Shown here piece by piece: positions 12,614-26,284 of a DNA stretch of 39,413 nucleotides. The DNA comes from Candidatus Treponema equi (GTDB lineage: Bacteria > Spirochaetota > Spirochaetia > Treponematales > Treponemataceae): positions 1 through 39,413 of the forward strand of contig JAGHUO010000078.1 in the NCBI GenBank assembly GCA_018064785.1, given 5' to 3'. The translations under genes and the position numbers were made by a program. Within the stretch, counting starts at the first letter, position 1; every line of letters starts with the position of its first letter. Below the pieces are notes generated by a model, which saw only the letters and a program-made list of their open reading frames with translations, was not told the origin of the DNA and did not search any database.

Positions 12614-13465
12614 TCATTCCTTGATGTTGTTTTTCTTTTTGTAATCGTCAGCTGATTTAAGGATCTTTGAACGCTTTTTGTTGTAGTCGTTGAGTGACAG
12701 TCCCAATGCGTTCTGTTCCCTCAGCAGTTTTACACGTCTGCTGCCGGGACATAGTTTTTCCGCGTCATCAAGCTGTCTGGCGCTTTCCTCATATTCTTTC
12801 ATCTCAAAAAGAAACTGTGAATAGGCAAGTTTTGCAAAGAATGTCTCGGCATCGATCCTTGCGTTTTCCAATGCCTTTATAAGCCATTTTCTTGTCTGTT
12901 CCTTTGATCCGCCAAAAATCTTAGGGCTGTAGTAGTACCAGGTTGAAAGATTGAGCATGGCCGGTGAAAAGTTTTTTCCCTGTTCGACTGCTTTTTCCTG
13001 ATATTTCTTTACGCTCATGCCGTTGAAGATGATGTCTGTTATGGAATAGGACATATAATATGATGTTATATCTGCATTGCATAGAAGGATGTAGGGTGTG
13101 ACCTCGCTGTCTTTTTTGTTTTCAAGATATTTCTTGATTCTTTTCCTCATTTTTTCAAAGGGAGGTCTTGATGCCTTGTCTTCACCTGGAAAAACATAGA
13201 TGTAGTTATAACGTTCCATTAAAATTAAGGCATCAAGGAGTATTGCTGCTTCCTCGCTGATCTGGGAAATCTCATCTGCGTGCACTTCCTTGTATCTGTC
13301 CAGGGCCTGCACGGTTTCTTCATCGTTTTCAATACAGGTGGCTTCCATGCGGTATGTCCAGAATCTGTCTATGACAGCTTGATCCACCTCGTTGAATTTT
13401 GTACCAGCAAAGGCGGTGAGTGAGATTCCGGCTGTAAATATCATTGAAAGCAATTTCTTGTTCAT
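12614..13465 (-). CDS. Exported TPR-like protein of unknown function
   Basis: Signal peptide MNKKLLSMIFTAGISLTAFAG; helical repeats with SPKIFGGSKEQTRKWLIKALENA and YEESARQLDDAEKLCPGSRRV. Confidence 0.75.
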   Translation of the reverse strand: MNKKLLSMIFTAGISLTAFAGTKFNEVDQAVIDRFWTYRMEATCIENDEETVQALDRYKEVHADEISQISEEAAILLDALILMERYNYIYVFPGEDKASRPPFEKMRKRIKKYLENKKDSEVTPYILLCNADITSYYMSYSITDIIFNGMSVKKYQEKAVEQGKNFSPAMLNLSTWYYYSPKIFGGSKEQTRKWLIKALENARIDAETFFAKLAYSQFLFEMKEYEESARQLDDAEKLCPGSRRVKLLREQNALGLSLNDYNKKRSKILKSADDYKKKNNIKE

Positions 13466-15066: not shown

Positions 15067-16776
15067 ATGAACGAATGGTTCAAAAAAAGTACAGAAACCA
15101 TTAAAACAAAATGGACAAGATGGTCAGTTCTTCAGAAGGCGATAGCTGCAGGTATTGTAGTTGCCATCATTATCGCTGTCGTAGTTCTGGCAAAGATGTC
15201 CTCACGTCCAACTTCAGTTAAACTTTTCAGTGCTCCGGTAAACGACGAGCAGGAAAGAGACGCAATTCTTACACGTCTCGATGAAGACAGCCGTACACAT
15301 GCATATGTTTCCTCAGACAACTACATCTATGTTGAGAATGAGGCAATCGCAAAGAAATACAGAAGCCAGCTTATTGCAGAAGGTCTTGCTCCTTCCCGTA
15401 TGGATTCTTTTGCTCTCTTTGACGTTACCAGATGGTCACGCACTCAGTTTGATGACCAGGTCAACTGGAAGCGTTCCATGGAGAATCTTGTAAAGCAGCA
15501 TCTTGAATCTTTGGACGGAATCATGAGGGCTGAGGTAGTTCTCGCTCTTCCTGAAGAGTCCCTTTTTTCTTCGAACCAGAATCCTACGACTGCCAGCGTA
15601 ATCCTCTATTCGCGCGGTGGTTCCAACATTCTTGAAGACAAGAAGCAGATAAAGGGTATACAGAATCTTATCGTTCGTGCTGTTGAAGGTCTTAAAGCAG
15701 AGAACATCTCCATCGTTGACGGTGCTACAGGCCAGGAAATCAATGATTTTGAAGGCATGGCAGAAAGCGATCGTCTTTCCAATATTGAAAAAGAAAAGCG
15801 CATCATCCTCAAGCTTGAGACGGAATATGCAAGCCGTGTCCTCAAGGCACTTCAGGTTACCTTTGGTGACAAACGTGTTCAAATTGCCAACATGAAGATT
15901 GACATGAACACTTCAAAGCGCACTACAAATTCCAAGGAATATACCGGTATTACAATCAGACCGGATAACCCAAATACTCCATACGATGACTCAGAGATCG
16001 TAGAAAAGCTTGTTCTTTCTGAGGAGACAGTGGACAAGACCTTTACAGGAACTGGATACAATCCAGAAGGTCCTGCCGGTATCGAAGGACAGAATCCACC
16101 TGTATACAGCGACATGAGCAATGTTGTTGGAAAAACAACAGAAAACGGAGCAAAGAGAAACTATGCCCTCAATGAAAAGGTTGTGTCGGAGGATACTTCT
16201 CCTCAGATCGACCGTGTGACAGTTTCTGTCAACATTGATGGTAAATGGGATCTTGAATACAACGAGAAAAACAGTCCTATCCTTGAATACGGACATCTTC
16301 GCAGAAAGTATACAGCGATTTCACCTGAGGAGCTTGCCAACGCAGCAAGTCTTGTCCAGGGAGCTGTAGGTTATACAAAGGCCCGTGGAGACAATGTAGT
16401 CGTAACCAACATTCCTTTTGACCGTTCAGAAGAACACAATGCGGAAGACCTTGCCTTCATCGCACGTCTCAACCGCAACAGAACTATCATGTTCAGCCTT
16501 GTTGGTGTTGCCGTCATCCTCATTGCCTTCATCGCATTCCGCATCATCAGCCGCGAAATCGAAAAGCGTCGTCGTCTTGCGGAAGAAGCAAGAATCCGCG
16601 AACAGGAAGAAGCACGCCAGAGAGCCCTTATGGAAGCTCAGCAGCAGGGTATGGAAGTCACCATGTCTGTCGAAGAACGCAAGCGTGCGGAACTCCAGGA
16701 AAATGCCATCGCCATGGCAAAGGAACATCCAGAAGATGTTGCTATGCTTATCCGTACATGGCTCATGGAGGAATAA
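15067..16776 (+). CDS. fliF: Flagellar MS-ring protein FliF
   Basis: Two TM regions, RTQFDDQVNWKRSMENLVKQHLESLDGIMRAEVVLALPE, ring-building motif; C-terminal EHPEDVAMLIRTWLMEE. ATG 15067 follows GGGAGGGG; track start 14995 is 24 codons upstream. Confidence 0.96.
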   Translation: MNEWFKKSTETIKTKWTRWSVLQKAIAAGIVVAIIIAVVVLAKMSSRPTSVKLFSAPVNDEQERDAILTRLDEDSRTHAYVSSDNYIYVENEAIAKKYRSQLIAEGLAPSRMDSFALFDVTRWSRTQFDDQVNWKRSMENLVKQHLESLDGIMRAEVVLALPEESLFSSNQNPTTASVILYSRGGSNILEDKKQIKGIQNLIVRAVEGLKAENISIVDGATGQEINDFEGMAESDRLSNIEKEKRIILKLETEYASRVLKALQVTFGDKRVQIANMKIDMNTSKRTTNSKEYTGITIRPDNPNTPYDDSEIVEKLVLSEETVDKTFTGTGYNPEGPAGIEGQNPPVYSDMSNVVGKTTENGAKRNYALNEKVVSEDTSPQIDRVTVSVNIDGKWDLEYNEKNSPILEYGHLRRKYTAISPEELANAASLVQGAVGYTKARGDNVVVTNIPFDRSEEHNAEDLAFIARLNRNRTIMFSLVGVAVILIAFIAFRIISREIEKRRRLAEEARIREQEEARQRALMEAQQQGMEVTMSVEERKRAELQENAIAMAKEHPEDVAMLIRTWLMEE

Positions 16777-16779
16777 CAG

Positions 16780-17175
16780 ATGCTTCCAGTTCAGAATGGT
16801 TTCGTAAAGCAGGTTAGACTCACGGGAAAAGAGAAGGCCGCTGTTCTCCTTGGGGAACTTGGTTATTCAGGTGATCATCTTCTCAAATATTTCTCTGATG
16901 AGGATTTGAAAAAGATCAGAAAAGGATTCGCCTCATTGGGCGGTCATTATAACGCAAGTCTGGAAAACACTGTCCTTGAAGAAGCATGTGCATATGGAAT
17001 CTCAAGGAATGTTCTTGCTCCGGACACAATCGTTAGAGCACAACGCAACGCAGAGGAAACAGCCGCAAGATATGCAGCCTCTGCAAAGATCAATGGTGCC
17101 GGTGTTCTCCCTGAAAATGGTTTGAATGCAAAAGACCTGGCAAATGTTCTTTCAATGTGGCTCAAGGAGGAGTAG
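16780..17175 (+). CDS. 131-aa FliG-N-like / FliF-C-like chimeric protein, function unknown
   Basis: N-terminus VRLTGKEKAAVLLGELG resembles the downstream FliG NLTGRQKAAIFLVAVG. C-terminus NAKDLANVLSMWLKEE resembles FliF HPEDVAMLIRTWLMEE. Good Shine-Dalgarno, 3-nt spacing to both neighbours. Confidence 0.85.
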   Translation: MLPVQNGFVKQVRLTGKEKAAVLLGELGYSGDHLLKYFSDEDLKKIRKGFASLGGHYNASLENTVLEEACAYGISRNVLAPDTIVRAQRNAEETAARYAASAKINGAGVLPENGLNAKDLANVLSMWLKEE

Positions 17176-17178
17176 GTT

Positions 17179-18237
17179 ATGGCAGAAGAAATGGCCGATG
17201 GCAAGAAAGGCAAGAAAAAGGGTGGAGCCAAAGACTATAAGAATCTTACAGGCCGCCAGAAAGCTGCTATATTCCTTGTCGCAGTAGGTAGCGATGTCGC
17301 ATCTGACGTCATGAAACATCTTCGTGAAGACGAAGTTGAAACTCTTACATTTGAAATTGCCCGTCTCGATACAATTGATGCAGACTTCAAGGACCAGGTT
17401 CTTGAAGAGTTCCAGGAACTCATGCAGGCACAGAACTTTATCACAACTGGTGGTATCGACTTTGCACGTGAACTCCTTGAAAAGTCATTGGGATCACAGA
17501 AGGCTATTGATATCATCAACCGTCTTACTTCAAGCCTTCAGGTTCGTCCGTTTGATTTCATCCGTCGTACAGACCCTGCACACTTGTTGAACTTCGTTCA
17601 GCAGGAATATCCACAGACAATTTCTTTGGTTCTTGCCTACCTTGAACCTCAGAAGGCAGCACAGATCCTTCAGAACCTTCCTCCTGAAATCCAGCCGGAA
17701 GTTTCAAAGCGTCTTGCTACAATGGACCGTACATCTCCGGAAGTTCTCCGTGAAGTTGAACGCGTTCTTGAAAAGAAACTTTCAACATTGTCTTCTGAAG
17801 ACTATACAGCAGCCGGTGGTGTCGACAGCATCGTTGAAATCCTTAACCTTGTTGACCGTTCTTCTGAAAAAGCCATCATCGAAACTCTTGAAGAAGACGA
17901 TCCAGAGCTTGCAGAGGAAATCAAGAAGCGCATGTTCGTTTTCGAAGATATTGTTATGCTTGATGACCGTGCTATCCAGAAAGTTCTTCGTGAAGTTGAT
18001 ACACAGGAACTTGCAAAGGCCCTCAAGTCCGTTGATACAGAAGTTCAGGACAAGATCTTCCAGAACATGTCAAAGCGTGCCGCTAGCATGCTTAAGGAAG
18101 ATATGGAATACATGGGACCTGTACGTCTCAAGGACGTTGAAGAAAGCCAGCAGAAGATCGTTTCTGTCATCAGACGTCTTGAGGATAGCGGTGAAATCGT
18201 TATCGCACGTTCTTCTGACGACGAAATGGTTGTATAA
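17179..18237 (+). CDS. fliG: Flagellar motor switch protein FliG
   Basis: LTGRQKAAIFLVAVGSDVASDVMKHL; NFVQQEYPQTISLVLAYLEPQKAAQIL; C-terminal MFVFEDIVMLDDRAIQKVLREVD motor domain. Confidence 0.97.
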   Translation: MAEEMADGKKGKKKGGAKDYKNLTGRQKAAIFLVAVGSDVASDVMKHLREDEVETLTFEIARLDTIDADFKDQVLEEFQELMQAQNFITTGGIDFARELLEKSLGSQKAIDIINRLTSSLQVRPFDFIRRTDPAHLLNFVQQEYPQTISLVLAYLEPQKAAQILQNLPPEIQPEVSKRLATMDRTSPEVLREVERVLEKKLSTLSSEDYTAAGGVDSIVEILNLVDRSSEKAIIETLEEDDPELAEEIKKRMFVFEDIVMLDDRAIQKVLREVDTQELAKALKSVDTEVQDKIFQNMSKRAASMLKEDMEYMGPVRLKDVEESQQKIVSVIRRLEDSGEIVIARSSDDEMVV

Positions 18238-20603: not shown

Positions 20604-21044
20604 ATGAAGAAATTTGAATTCAAAATGCAGAAGATCCTCGACTTAAGGCAGTACGAGCAGAAACAGGCGGAAGCCGAACTGGGAAAGGCCAATGCCGAGG
20701 TTGCAAGAATTCAGGCAAAGCTTGATGACATCGCACATAAGAAAGCCCACACTGTCACCACATACAATACAGAAACTGATTTTACCATCGTAAACCAGAT
20801 ACAGCAGTTTTTTAAGGTTCTCGATATAAAGAAAGAAGAATATCTGCAGGAACTTGTGTCGGCTCAGATGGTTGCCGACCAGAAGAGGGCAGTGGTTCTT
20901 GAATGCATGAAAAAGACAAAAGCCCTTGAAAAGCTTCGCGAGAAACATCTTGCAAAATGGAAGATCGAAGAAGCAAGAAAGGAAGAAGTTGTTGTTGATG
21001 ATATGGTCAATGGCAGGTTCTATTCCGCATCTTCCGGAAGCTGA
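20604..21044 (+). CDS. fliJ: Flagellar export chaperone FliJ
   Basis: Short coiled-coil protein MKKFEFKMQKILDLRQYEQKQAEAELGKANAE directly after fliI. Confidence 0.85.
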   Translation: MKKFEFKMQKILDLRQYEQKQAEAELGKANAEVARIQAKLDDIAHKKAHTVTTYNTETDFTIVNQIQQFFKVLDIKKEEYLQELVSAQMVADQKRAVVLECMKKTKALEKLREKHLAKWKIEEARKEEVVVDDMVNGRFYSASSGS

Positions 21045-21706
21045 ATCGTTTTCCATCCTTCCGTTTTGTTCATTTTTTCCAGATCTTCTATGACCTTGTT
21101 AAGCCGTGCAAGTTCACGGTCCAAAGTTTTCCTGTAGTTCAGTTTTCCGTTGTTGATGCGTTCCCGTTCATCTTCCCAGTTCTGAAGGCTTGAGATGTTC
21201 AGGAATTTGAATTTTCCTTCGTTTGCTTTTTCAGCCCAAAGGGAAGCTTCCTGCCAGTATGCGTAGCATGTCTCATATACTGCCTTTGCTTTCTGCAGGT
21301 TGCGAAGGTATTCGTCCTTCCATGGTGCGTCATAGAAATATGCCACATTCTTGTCATAGACCCGGCCAAGACGAAGATGCTGTTCAATCAGCTTTAGGTT
21401 GAGGTGCATCTGGAACAGACAGCGGTATTTTTCCCACTGTTCCTCGTTTTCTATTTTGGCATAGGCATAGAGTGGATTGCTGAAATCTGACTTTACGGCC
21501 TGCTCAAGCCACCATATGTTTTCAAGGACATCGTCGGGCTGCTGCTGGTGGTGCACGTGATAAAGCCTAAAAAAATCTTCCTTGTATTTGCACATGAATG
21601 CATCTGCCTTTGATGTTCCAAAAACAGCAAACACCGCGCACAATGAGAATACTTTAACTGCCATCAAAAAAGACTTTTTCACGCTCTTATTATCGGTATA
21701 TGCCAT
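21020..21706 (-). CDS. Exported helical protein of unknown function
   Basis: Signal peptide SFLMAVKVFSLCAVFAVFGTSKADA, then a helical charged domain. Convergent 25-bp overlap with fliJ. Confidence 0.7.
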   Translation of the reverse strand: MAYTDNKSVKKSFLMAVKVFSLCAVFAVFGTSKADAFMCKYKEDFFRLYHVHHQQQPDDVLENIWWLEQAVKSDFSNPLYAYAKIENEEQWEKYRCLFQMHLNLKLIEQHLRLGRVYDKNVAYFYDAPWKDEYLRNLQKAKAVYETCYAYWQEASLWAEKANEGKFKFLNISSLQNWEDERERINNGKLNYRKTLDRELARLNKVIEDLEKMNKTEGWKTIQLPEDAE

Positions 21707-21790: not shown

Positions 21791-24700
21791 ATGAAGTCCA
21801 GGGTATTGAAAACCGTTTTTGGTATTTTGATTTTTCTCACTATAATTGCATGCTTTGTCGTGGTCATGCGGCCTGTCTACATGAAGGTTGACCAGACTGT
21901 GCGCCAGGCGGAAGCAAAGGCCGTCGCAATGTTTGAGAAAAGAACCGGACTTTCAGTTTCCTATAAATCCCTGTCTCCTTCCATATTAAGTGGACTCATA
22001 ATGAAAGGTATTGTCCTCAGGGATGCTCAAACGGGTGAGGAAATCCTAAACGTAAGAAAGACTTCCCTGTACTACAGGCTTTCCAGCATTCTCGAAGGAG
22101 ATATTGAACATGCCTTCACAAAACTTTCCATCCGCGATGTAAACATAAACTTCAGTGATGAAAAAATAGAGCAGATCTTTCCATCTACAGGTGAAGAAGA
22201 TCCGGCTAAAGCTGTTGAGACAAGTGCCACCACAATTGCTTCCATTGAAGATATGGTCCGGACCATTGCCTTCTCGTTGCCTTTTGATGTCCAGGTAAAA
22301 AATGTAAGGTTCTCTTATACGTCAGGAAAGGAACTCTATTCCCTTGCCCTTAGGGAACTTCTGGTACGCAAGGATTCTTCTGCCAGTTCCGTATATGTCA
22401 GACTCAACGGAAATACAAGCTGCAACATGGACTTCCTTGACTATAAGCCGGCAGGTTTCATCTATAGAATTGAAGGCAATCTGATGCATACGGTTTCCGG
22501 CAGTTCCTTCAGAATGAGGCTTGACGACAACAGGCGATGTGACTATTCCGTAAAGCATCTTGAATTCCTTCTGAACTACAGGGAGCATAATTTCATTGTC
22601 CGTTCCACAAGGCAGTTCTTCCCTATGAACATGAGGGTCCTCTTTAGCCTTGACAGCATGTCCATGGACAGTGCCCTTCGTACGGAAAAACTTGATCCAC
22701 TTGCGATGTTCAGGGTTCCGTCTTATGACGATTGGATCGATTTCTTTAAAGGCTCACTTATTACTACGGAATCTTATTTTACCTTGGATTTCAACAGCTT
22801 AAGGTACAGCTGGTCTTCTGATACAGAAGTAAACATGCCAAAGAATACCCACTTCACAAAGCAGGGGCAGAATGTCTATGCAAAGTGTACAGGCAACAAC
22901 ACTGACATAAAAATCTCGAATCTTTCTGCCGACGGCGGAATTTTCAAGGGCGTGTTCAAGGGGGAATTCAACATTCCTAAAATGCAGCCAAAGGGAAAAC
23001 TTGACCTTGACTACTATGCATACTTCAACGGAAACAAACTTTCTGCAACCATGTATTTCAAACCTCGAAGCGGTGAAGGTTTTGATTTCTACATGCCGGA
23101 AGTCACATTCGGCAAATGGTGCAAGTATTCAAATTTCAGAGGATATTCATCTCTTGGTGATACCATAGTTCTTGTCATTGATGCCGATGACTACAGCCAC
23201 AGTGAATATGGTGTGCCAGGCCATGTTTCCGCCAACGGAACACTTCAGCTTGGAGACAACATGTACCTTCAGGCTTCCGCCAACGTGGACAACTTCTTCC
23301 TTGATACGGGATTCAGGACGGCCGCCTTCTTTACGGATACTGAAGGTGATCCTGACGAGACATACATGGGACCTCTTGTGCCTTATGCAGAGCCATACAT
23401 CACCCAGGTTGAAGTTTATTTTGCAACCGACTTTGATGACTTTACATACAATTCTCCTGTAATAATCTGCGCTAACACAAAGCAGGACAAGGAAATCATG
23501 TTCGTTTCTTTGGATGGTTCCGGTACATCGATCCAGTTCAGCCGCCTTGATGTCATGTACGGAAACAATTCACTTCTAGCTTCTGGAAGCCTGGACATCG
23601 ATACTGACATCGGGCAGATGAATTTCTATACGGACTTCAACTTGAATTCATTCCCGTATGCAATGAACGGAATCTATACATTCGGTGAATGGCTGAACCT
23701 TAGCGGTAATTACGGAATGGAAGCTTCTGTGAATTTTGGACGTACAACCGATGGTTCCATCAGGTTCAACAGCATGCCTCTTTCATACGGAACATACGCG
23801 GCTTCCGTTTCTCTTGATACCAATTTCAGTGTTGACAGCAACGGACAGTGGGATGCCTTCATAGATAAATTTGAGATAAGCGAATTGTCCGACAACTTCA
23901 GGTCAAAGCCAAAGGTCGTTTTTGCCGGCGAGTTAAATGACAAAGGACTTCTGGCATCTAGCATCCTTTATTCAGACAACCTGTCGTCTCTTGAAGGTTC
24001 CGGTTATGTCCTCTGGAACAATGCCTATGATACCGGATTCTTTGACAATGCTATCGTAAGCATGAACCTTTCAAGTCCTGTCTCTTCGGAGAGCATTGAA
24101 TTCAGCGGAGAGGCAAAGAATCTGTCTCAGGGTGAATTCTCCTTTGACAATTATGAGAAGGATCTGTATTTCAATGTGACCTCAAGGATAACATCATTCC
24201 CTATAAGCAGGTTCCTTCTGGGGCAGGGTACAGGAAACACAGTTTCAGTGGACATAAATGCAAGCGGAACCTTTGAGAATCCTCTTTATTCCGTCAATGT
24301 CAGGGATGCTTCTGTGCTTCTTGGCGGTTCCAACCTTACAGCAAAACTTAACGCGACTTATATAGACAACATCTTTGATATTTCCAATGCGGATATTGCC
24401 TGGAATGACTTCAAGATCGATGAAGTCCATTCACGCCTGGATATGAGTTCTTTTGATGGAGATGCTGTTCTTCATGTTAAGATGAACGGAGTGGACAGAC
24501 AGCTGGATGCCGGTCTTGATTTTGTGATGACAAATCTCGGTGATCCGACTGTAAAGGGGCTTCCGGAAGCATTCTCGATAGAAGCGGACTGCAGTTCCTT
24601 GGACAGCAACTTCATAGAGAATTTCACTCCTTTCCATGTTTCCCTCATCCGCTCACCAGGTCGTCTTGATATCGTCACCGATGAAAATATAGGTGCCTAT

Positions 24701-26284
24701 GGTGAAATCCTGGATGATGGATCCATTGCCTTTACTGTCGCCGACGACAAGGCCCTTCATTTCTCCATGAACGGAACAGTGAAGGACCAGATGCTTGACC
24801 TTGACCTCAATGATGTGTACTGGGATCTTTCAAAGATAGCCTATGTGTTCAATTCGGACATGTTTACCCTTTATAAAGGTGTGCTTGCAGGAAACCTGAA
24901 TATCTCTGGTCCTGTCATTGGACCTGAAATGAACGGAATCATGTCGCTTCTTGAGCCTGACTTCAATCTTCCTCAGTATATTCCGGATCACTTTACAACT
25001 GACGAGATAAAAGTAGTGTTCTCACAGGAAGAGATATCCCTGACGGAGACTCTTTTCAACGTACGTACAGGTTTTGTTGCCGTCAGCGGTCTTGTTTCCA
25101 TGGACAGATGGTCTCTAGGAAATCTTGTGGTCAACATCCGTACTCTGGAAAACTTCAAGATACCTGTAGATGCCAGGGTTGACCACTTTAGGATCAAGGG
25201 TTTCACCTCTGTTGATGCAGCCCTTATCATGGAAGACAGGTTCCTTACGCTCAATGGTTCCGTAGAACTTCAGAATTCAGTGCTTTCAGTTTCCATGTCA
25301 AACCAGGAGCAGCTGGTGGACATTGACAGAAAGGATAAAAAGGACAAGAAAAAGAAAAAGGAAGCAGCTCCTGCCACTGGAGCCGGATATATGCCGTCTC
25401 TTGACTTCAACATAAACCTTGCCCTCATGGTTGGACAAAGGGTTCAGGTTGATGTAAATCCATTCCTTAGAAGCCTTATTGCGCCATCGACACCTATCTA
25501 TGTGTCTGTTGATACGGCGACAGGACTCTGGAGCCTTAAGGGCGACATTGTTCTTCGTGGTGGAGAAATCTCATATTTGAACAGAAACTTCTATCTGAAG
25601 CAGGGCCGTCTTGTCCTCAACGAGACCCAGGACCATTTTGATCCTAACATCACGGTACGTGCGGAAACCCGTGAACGTGATTCCGACGGTGAGAATGTCA
25701 CTATCAGTCTTTCCGCCATTTCCCAGAACATATCAAGCTTCAACGCTGTTCTTTCTTCTGTTCCGGCCAAATCGGAGAATGAAATCATGGAACTTCTGGG
25801 GCAGATTGTCGCCGGAGATTCCAGTTCCGTAGGTAACCTGCTGGTTGCCGGTATGGATTATGGTGTTCAGGTCACGGTTCTGCGCAAGGTAGAGAATGCA
25901 TTGCGTGATTTATGTAATTTTGATATATTTTCAATCAGAACTACGGCGCTGCAGAACACAATTATACAGGGACTTGATATAGGTAAACGTGCGGAAAATA
26001 ATTCCGTAATCGGTAACTTATTCGATAATTCGACTGTTTATATTGGTAAATACTTCGGAAGCGATGTTTATGCTGATGCTCTTCTTCACTGGACTTATGA
26101 CAGAAAAGTCGCCGGTTCCAGTGAGGCGATGGGTGAAGGTCTGGTTTTCCAGCCAGAGATTGGTCTTGAGTTCAACGCTCCATTTGCCAATATCCGCTGG
26201 AATTTTGCACCTGATCTCAGTGATTTCCAGGAATCATGGGCCAAATCAACATCCATTACATTGTCGTGGCGTGTCGCATTCTGA
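21791..26284 (+). CDS. tamB: TamB/YtfN-like translocation and assembly protein (DUF490-type C-terminus)
   Basis: 1497 aa, N-terminal signal anchor, long beta-rich body, conserved C-terminus (LSSVPAKSENEIMELLGQIVAG... SITLSWRVAF). Directly upstream of bamA. Confidence 0.88.
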   Translation: MKSRVLKTVFGILIFLTIIACFVVVMRPVYMKVDQTVRQAEAKAVAMFEKRTGLSVSYKSLSPSILSGLIMKGIVLRDAQTGEEILNVRKTSLYYRLSSILEGDIEHAFTKLSIRDVNINFSDEKIEQIFPSTGEEDPAKAVETSATTIASIEDMVRTIAFSLPFDVQVKNVRFSYTSGKELYSLALRELLVRKDSSASSVYVRLNGNTSCNMDFLDYKPAGFIYRIEGNLMHTVSGSSFRMRLDDNRRCDYSVKHLEFLLNYREHNFIVRSTRQFFPMNMRVLFSLDSMSMDSALRTEKLDPLAMFRVPSYDDWIDFFKGSLITTESYFTLDFNSLRYSWSSDTEVNMPKNTHFTKQGQNVYAKCTGNNTDIKISNLSADGGIFKGVFKGEFNIPKMQPKGKLDLDYYAYFNGNKLSATMYFKPRSGEGFDFYMPEVTFGKWCKYSNFRGYSSLGDTIVLVIDADDYSHSEYGVPGHVSANGTLQLGDNMYLQASANVDNFFLDTGFRTAAFFTDTEGDPDETYMGPLVPYAEPYITQVEVYFATDFDDFTYNSPVIICANTKQDKEIMFVSLDGSGTSIQFSRLDVMYGNNSLLASGSLDIDTDIGQMNFYTDFNLNSFPYAMNGIYTFGEWLNLSGNYGMEASVNFGRTTDGSIRFNSMPLSYGTYAASVSLDTNFSVDSNGQWDAFIDKFEISELSDNFRSKPKVVFAGELNDKGLLASSILYSDNLSSLEGSGYVLWNNAYDTGFFDNAIVSMNLSSPVSSESIEFSGEAKNLSQGEFSFDNYEKDLYFNVTSRITSFPISRFLLGQGTGNTVSVDINASGTFENPLYSVNVRDASVLLGGSNLTAKLNATYIDNIFDISNADIAWNDFKIDEVHSRLDMSSFDGDAVLHVKMNGVDRQLDAGLDFVMTNLGDPTVKGLPEAFSIEADCSSLDSNFIENFTPFHVSLIRSPGRLDIVTDENIGAYGEILDDGSIAFTVADDKALHFSMNGTVKDQMLDLDLNDVYWDLSKIAYVFNSDMFTLYKGVLAGNLNISGPVIGPEMNGIMSLLEPDFNLPQYIPDHFTTDEIKVVFSQEEISLTETLFNVRTGFVAVSGLVSMDRWSLGNLVVNIRTLENFKIPVDARVDHFRIKGFTSVDAALIMEDRFLTLNGSVELQNSVLSVSMSNQEQLVDIDRKDKKDKKKKKEAAPATGAGYMPSLDFNINLALMVGQRVQVDVNPFLRSLIAPSTPIYVSVDTATGLWSLKGDIVLRGGEISYLNRNFYLKQGRLVLNETQDHFDPNITVRAETRERDSDGENVTISLSAISQNISSFNAVLSSVPAKSENEIMELLGQIVAGDSSSVGNLLVAGMDYGVQVTVLRKVENALRDLCNFDIFSIRTTALQNTIIQGLDIGKRAENNSVIGNLFDNSTVYIGKYFGSDVYADALLHWTYDRKVAGSSEAMGEGLVFQPEIGLEFNAPFANIRWNFAPDLSDFQESWAKSTSITLSWRVAF

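Follow-up and report, generated by a model that had tools for sequence, protein, structure and literature searches.

A chimeric FliG_N/FliF_C mini-protein encoded between fliF and fliG and at other sites in Treponema-like spirochaetes: a possible accessory flagellar rotor protein

The N-terminal domain of FliG (FliG_N) and the C-terminal tail of FliF normally clip the switch ring of the flagellar motor (C ring) to its membrane ring (MS ring). Three papers describe how this joint is built: FliG_N changes conformation and co-folds with the FliF tail (PMC6079021), the FliF C-terminus wraps FliG domain D1 while D2 completes the D1 of the next FliG (PMC11087270), and helices alpha5-alpha6 of FliG_N pack on alpha2-alpha3 of the neighbour (PMC11528121). 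The same two elements form one domain in the co-folded split domain FliFc:FliGn (5TDY) and in FliF-FliG fusion chains (8Z4D), and spirochaetes also feature an extra FliG-derived gene in the paralogues FliG1 and FliG2. Here, we present a small spirochaetal protein that shares with FliG_N (PF14842, FliG D1) the LTGxxKAAILLxxLG ... VLEE segment, the helices and, by model, the fold (5TDY and 5WUJ are among the top hits), and with the FliG-binding helix of FliF the PxxVAxxLxxWL signature at the extreme C-terminus (28-31 residues). It differs from FliG in having D1 only, without the D2 hairpin, FliG_M and FliG_C, and in bearing a FliF-like tail; from FliF in being small, in lacking the ring-building domains and in that the tail follows the FliG part instead of preceding it; from the split domain and the fusions in being a single small chain with the FliG part first and the FliF tail last; and from FliG1 and FliG2, which are long proteins, in resembling the fliF-linked FliG much more than FliG1-like ORFs. 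No description of this mini-protein was found in the open-literature titles and passages covered, and nothing searched named it as a flagellar protein, in agreement with a sequence-only reading of the locus that did not recognise it as a named flagellar protein. Within these sources the chimera, which is carried by many Treponema-like spirochaetes, is undescribed so far.

The gene was analysed in a stretch of 39,413 nucleotides from Candidatus Treponema equi (GCA_018064785.1, contig JAGHUO010000078.1; hereafter the window), where it lies in an otherwise ordinary flagellar operon on the + strand, flgB-flgC-fliE-fliF-[ORF131]-fliG-fliH-fliI-fliJ (fliF and fliG named by NCBIfam equivalogs, the remaining genes by eye). 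It spans 16780..17175 and encodes 131 amino acids, comprising a FliG D1-like head with the motif LTGxEKAAxLLxELG ... VLEE (residues ~13-77, 16816..17011), a variable linker that, judging from the family alignment and the end of the FliG similarity, replaces the D2 armadillo hairpin of FliG (residues ~78-103, 17012..17088), and a helix resembling the FliF C-terminus with the family motif NPDxVAxVLxxWL (residues 104-131, 17089..17172). Upstream lies fliF (15067..16776, + strand, 569 aa, TIGR00206 at 318 bits), whose C-terminus, HPEDVAMLIRTWLMEE, is the part resembled by the tail, and downstream lies fliG (17179..18237, + strand, 352 aa, TIGR00207 at 487 bits), whose domain D1 is the part resembled by the head.

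Three bases separate the fliF stop from the ORF131 start, and three more separate the ORF131 stop from the fliG start. The sequence and the tight spacing at such loci point to a GGAGGA in the final FliF codons (16767..16772) as the likely ribosome-binding site of the mini gene and to another in the final mini codons (17166..17171) as that of fliG. The fliF end (16765-16776, ATGGAGGAATAA) and the mini end (17164-17175, AAGGAGGAGTAG) thereby also supply the ribosome-binding site for the gene that follows, and this dual use may be what preserves the terminal EE. Tight coupling of the mini gene to fliF and fliG was found at 24 loci; at the 22 where it was measurable, the mini gene starts -1 to +4 bases relative to the end of the fliF stop codon. 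In the window, fliF, the mini gene and fliG (15067-18237) also share one reading frame, with the stop codon and one further codon between each. This layout recurs in G030, G137 and G035 and, without the further codon before fliG, in G373, and it is absent from most other loci.

A protein search of 59 related genomes turned up orthologues, some lying in the fliF-fliG gap and others at unrelated sites. Sixteen of these were aligned, and the resulting profile, which contained no FliG rows, was run against 118 genomes from the genus and 247 from the phylum, giving 64 distinct members in total. Members scored at E<1e-15, and the FliG N-terminus mostly at ~1e-7 to 1e-10 in almost every genome. A second profile, built from 63 members and likewise free of FliF and FliG rows, was run in six frames against 70 genomes of the family without a member. 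The FliG N-terminal domain was the best match in nearly all 70 (E 1e-8 to 5e-12), and the extreme C-terminus of FliF (last ~30 residues) was among the next matches in most, at E ~0.001-0.04 and running to the end of FliF; since these FliF matches are orthologous between genomes, they are not independent trials. In some genomes, longer FliG1-like ORFs (~350-490 aa) scored similarly to these FliF matches. FliG1-like ORFs of ~390-490 aa recur in the genus, and the genome of the window has a second FliG-like gene of its own (G000:C174:15512-16057, open frame 452 aa) that matches FliG_N twice.

For the head, the N-terminal match to the window's FliG is as the sequence-only reading had it, with 8 of 16 residues identical. 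Against Pfam FliG_N the window protein reaches E=7e-4 over residues 14-71, at 20.6 bits and thus below the 25-bit gathering score, and against TIGR00207 it gives a weak match restricted to residues 12-77, whose 16.4 bits do not reach the cut-off of this FliG equivalog (226.7 bits; N, M and C domains). Across the family, 62 of 63 members match Pfam FliG_N (E<=0.1, best 2.4e-13), and one matches FliG itself with 41% identity over ~74 residues. Searched against the PDB, the family profile retrieves FliG_N of T. maritima (5TDY, E=3.8e-9), Salmonella FliG (E=1.5e-6), H. pylori FliG (5WUJ, E=1.3e-4) and a FliF-FliG fusion chain, the latter at its FliG part. The similarity stops around profile column 86-92, near the GG(I) that marks the beginning of D2; D1 is thus present and the D2 hairpin is missing.

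For the tail, 6 of the last 16 residues are identical to those of the window's FliF (D, A, W, L, E, E), again as had been read from the sequence. The likeness to FliF stood up to closer analysis; the final EE identity is partly explained by the GGAGGA at both gene ends, and in members from the fliF-fliG gap the last two identities, mostly EE or ED codons doubling as a ribosome-binding site, are to be discounted. Members at other sites end in DS, GE, DD and so on, and still match the FliF tail. When the family was aligned to 23 FliF tails, hhalign gave a probability of 95% and, for that single profile pair, E=3.5e-8; the 28 aligned columns run to the C-terminus on both sides. When a FliF-tail matrix was scored on 60-residue C-termini, 62 of 64 members exceeded 2000 shuffles at p<0.01, the match lying a median of one residue away from the C-terminus. 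Each of the 16 non-member C-termini that score above the members' median belongs to FliF. By these two measures the mini tail carries the FliF C-tail signature PEDVAxLIRxWL. The window's own tail is among the weaker ones (p=0.007), and matches of the family profile to FliF C-termini in the PDB are weak (Salmonella FliF 6SCN, 489-558 of 560, E=0.095; 12DR, E=0.97). No YscJ_FliF or FliF (TIGR00206) match of the window protein was found in the Pfam/NCBIfam search; the tail alone is FliF-like. The claimed FliF_C-like end is therefore borne out by hhalign, by the family-profile matches and by the shuffles, and the mini-protein is homologous to FliG_N and FliF_C jointly. Chance similarity was considered as well and is ruled out by the family profiles, hhalign and the shuffles.

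Structure prediction was poor for the window protein (AlphaFold, pLDDT 60.8, pTM 0.41). The 125-aa orthologue L006 from G024 was predicted as six helices with a mean pLDDT of 83.7 and a pTM of 0.78, its tail blocks reaching pLDDT 88-92. For both models the top Foldseek hit is FliG_N from 5TDY, the co-folded FliFc:FliGn complex, with a probability of 0.99 despite the kind of weak E-value (0.33) that a short helical domain tends to give, and further hits have far lower probability, except for FliG 5WUJ (0.77) with the window model. L006, which superposes on 5TDY at an rmsd of 2.7 A, is thus predicted to adopt the FliG_N fold, and together with the significant profile match this sustains the FliG_N-like head that had been claimed. 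The pTM and pLDDT of this model, along with structural logic, suggest that the tail closes on the protein's own head in cis.

The mini-protein is real, constrained yet fast-evolving, and under purifying selection. Compared in pairs, the three closest members give dN/dS values of 0.10-0.17 by NG86 (dS up to 1.9, partly saturated), as against 0.013-0.017 for FliG and 0.05-0.10 for FliF. The gene occurs in 57 of the 118 sampled genomes of the genus. Conservation in relatives with low dN/dS, which the sequence-only reading had named among its possible refutations, thus holds. It was also found in two other genera of the same family (G373 and G383), never with more than one copy per genome, and the profile search did not find it in the rest of the phylum sample (247 genomes) or in several near-complete genomes of the genus, such as G021, G066, G123, G131 and G316. 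A single-protein scan of named genomes matched only two metagenome-assembled spirochaete genomes. The family forms a single clade apart from FliG (SH-aLRT 100); in a tree rooted on FliG, with few columns and long branches, either the gap or the scattered location could be the original one.

The location between fliF and fliG applies to 24 of the 64 members, that of the window among them. It is not a defining feature, as 40 of the 64 sit at scattered sites adjoining non-flagellar genes, and a definition of the gene by the fliF-fliG gap was rejected on this account. Among the scattered members only clade-level synteny was seen, and no common partner among the non-flagellar neighbours. In one clade (L013, L014, L080, L081, L083 and L084) the mini gene is divergent beside a kinase-like gene, cytidylate-kinase-like by eye, and in other clades the scattered gene has other neighbours. 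Sigma-28-like promoters upstream of the mini genes did not rise above shuffles except in 1 of 64.

Close relatives without the gene offer a direct comparison. In G021 and G031, FliG is 97.4-97.7% identical to the window's and 68-69 of the 69 residues of D1 are identical (none or one change); FliF tails are likewise unchanged in relatives that lack the gene. No compensating FliG change was seen in this comparison, and with D1 this similar whether or not the gene is present, FliG bears no mark of adaptation to the mini-protein. Presence and absence of the gene among close relatives with near-identical FliG provide a ready-made genetic and biochemical probe of the ring joint.

Tentatively, we prefer to read the mini-protein as an accessory flagellar rotor protein, a self-closed unit of FliF tail and FliG D1 that would act as a one-sided cap or plug of the FliG inner ring. 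Both halves of the MS-ring/C-ring split domain are joined here in a single small chain, with their order reversed, and the FliF-like tail would fold back and close its own D1-like head. The closed unit would retain the D1 face that receives the D2 hairpin of a neighbouring FliG; it could accept the neighbour's D2 and, having no D2, middle or C-terminal domain, would donate none. It would then bind FliG on one side only and cap or plug the inner ring of FliG_N and FliF_C; alternatively, the self-complemented unit might sequester FliG and hold it in check. As D1 and the FliF tail are present and D2 is missing, a cap, plug or sequestering factor is the most economical reading, and from it we infer binding to FliG, capping and an effect on the motor. 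If so, the mini-protein would bear on how MS-ring and C-ring stoichiometry stays matched, or mismatched, and on what limits FliG polymerisation. Counting against a rotor cap are the position of most members away from flagellar genes, the lack of a sigma-28-like promoter standing out upstream, the absence of the gene from about half of the genus, and a FliG D1 that is unchanged with or without it.

A soluble assembly regulator appears somewhat unlikely. Such a decoy or chaperone would act on free FliG, or on FliF tails, outside the finished ring and prevent premature polymerisation or limit motor number. The small size, fast evolution, patchy occurrence and single copy usually away from the operon would all suit this role; however, the in-operon position in other lineages would mean joint expression of the mini-protein, FliF and FliG, as would be equally fitting for a structural part. 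We regard it as unlikely that the protein is an extra lineage-specific switch-ring subunit, circularly permuted and self-complemented, that would enter the FliG inner ring, end or interrupt the D1-D2 intercalation and so set stoichiometry or a seam in Treponema-like motors. An open adaptor in series from MS ring to C ring, whose head would take the FliF tail and whose own tail would enter FliG_N, is the idea put forward by the sequence-only reading and is distinctly unlikely. Its receptor-like and ligand-like parts are both conserved and the gene is closely coupled between fliF and fliG at 24 loci, but the L006 model suggests that the tail completes the head of its own chain, so that both the groove for FliF and the mini tail would be occupied. 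FliF tails and FliG_N also do not differ in relatives that lack the gene, which would make a linker in series an optional element of an interface that is the same in all other respects.

The scattered members without a consistent partner or sigma-28-like site could also indicate that the chimera has left the flagellum, its fliF and fliG pieces now serving another process. Against this stand the FliF signature (P, A, W), kept in the tail across very divergent heads, and the 24 members still residing between fliF and fliG, and we consider it quite improbable. The gene could have originated by tandem duplication across the junction of the fliF 3' and fliG 5' ends, which would place exactly a FliG_N-then-FliF_C chimera between the two genes, and it would then exemplify how core rotor parts can recombine into new accessory genes. 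That the ORF is a mere chance frame or a decaying duplicate of this junction, whose expected product it would match, is ruled out by the 64 orthologues, the dN/dS and the motifs conserved at both ends, and its likelihood is negligible.

The flgB-fliJ operon of the window is flanked by two ORFs of 283 and 228 aa on the - strand (12614-13465 and 21020-21706), both with signal-peptide-like starts. After fliJ, a 1497-aa ORF (21791-26284) has, by eye only, the look of a large TamB/AsmA-type envelope protein.
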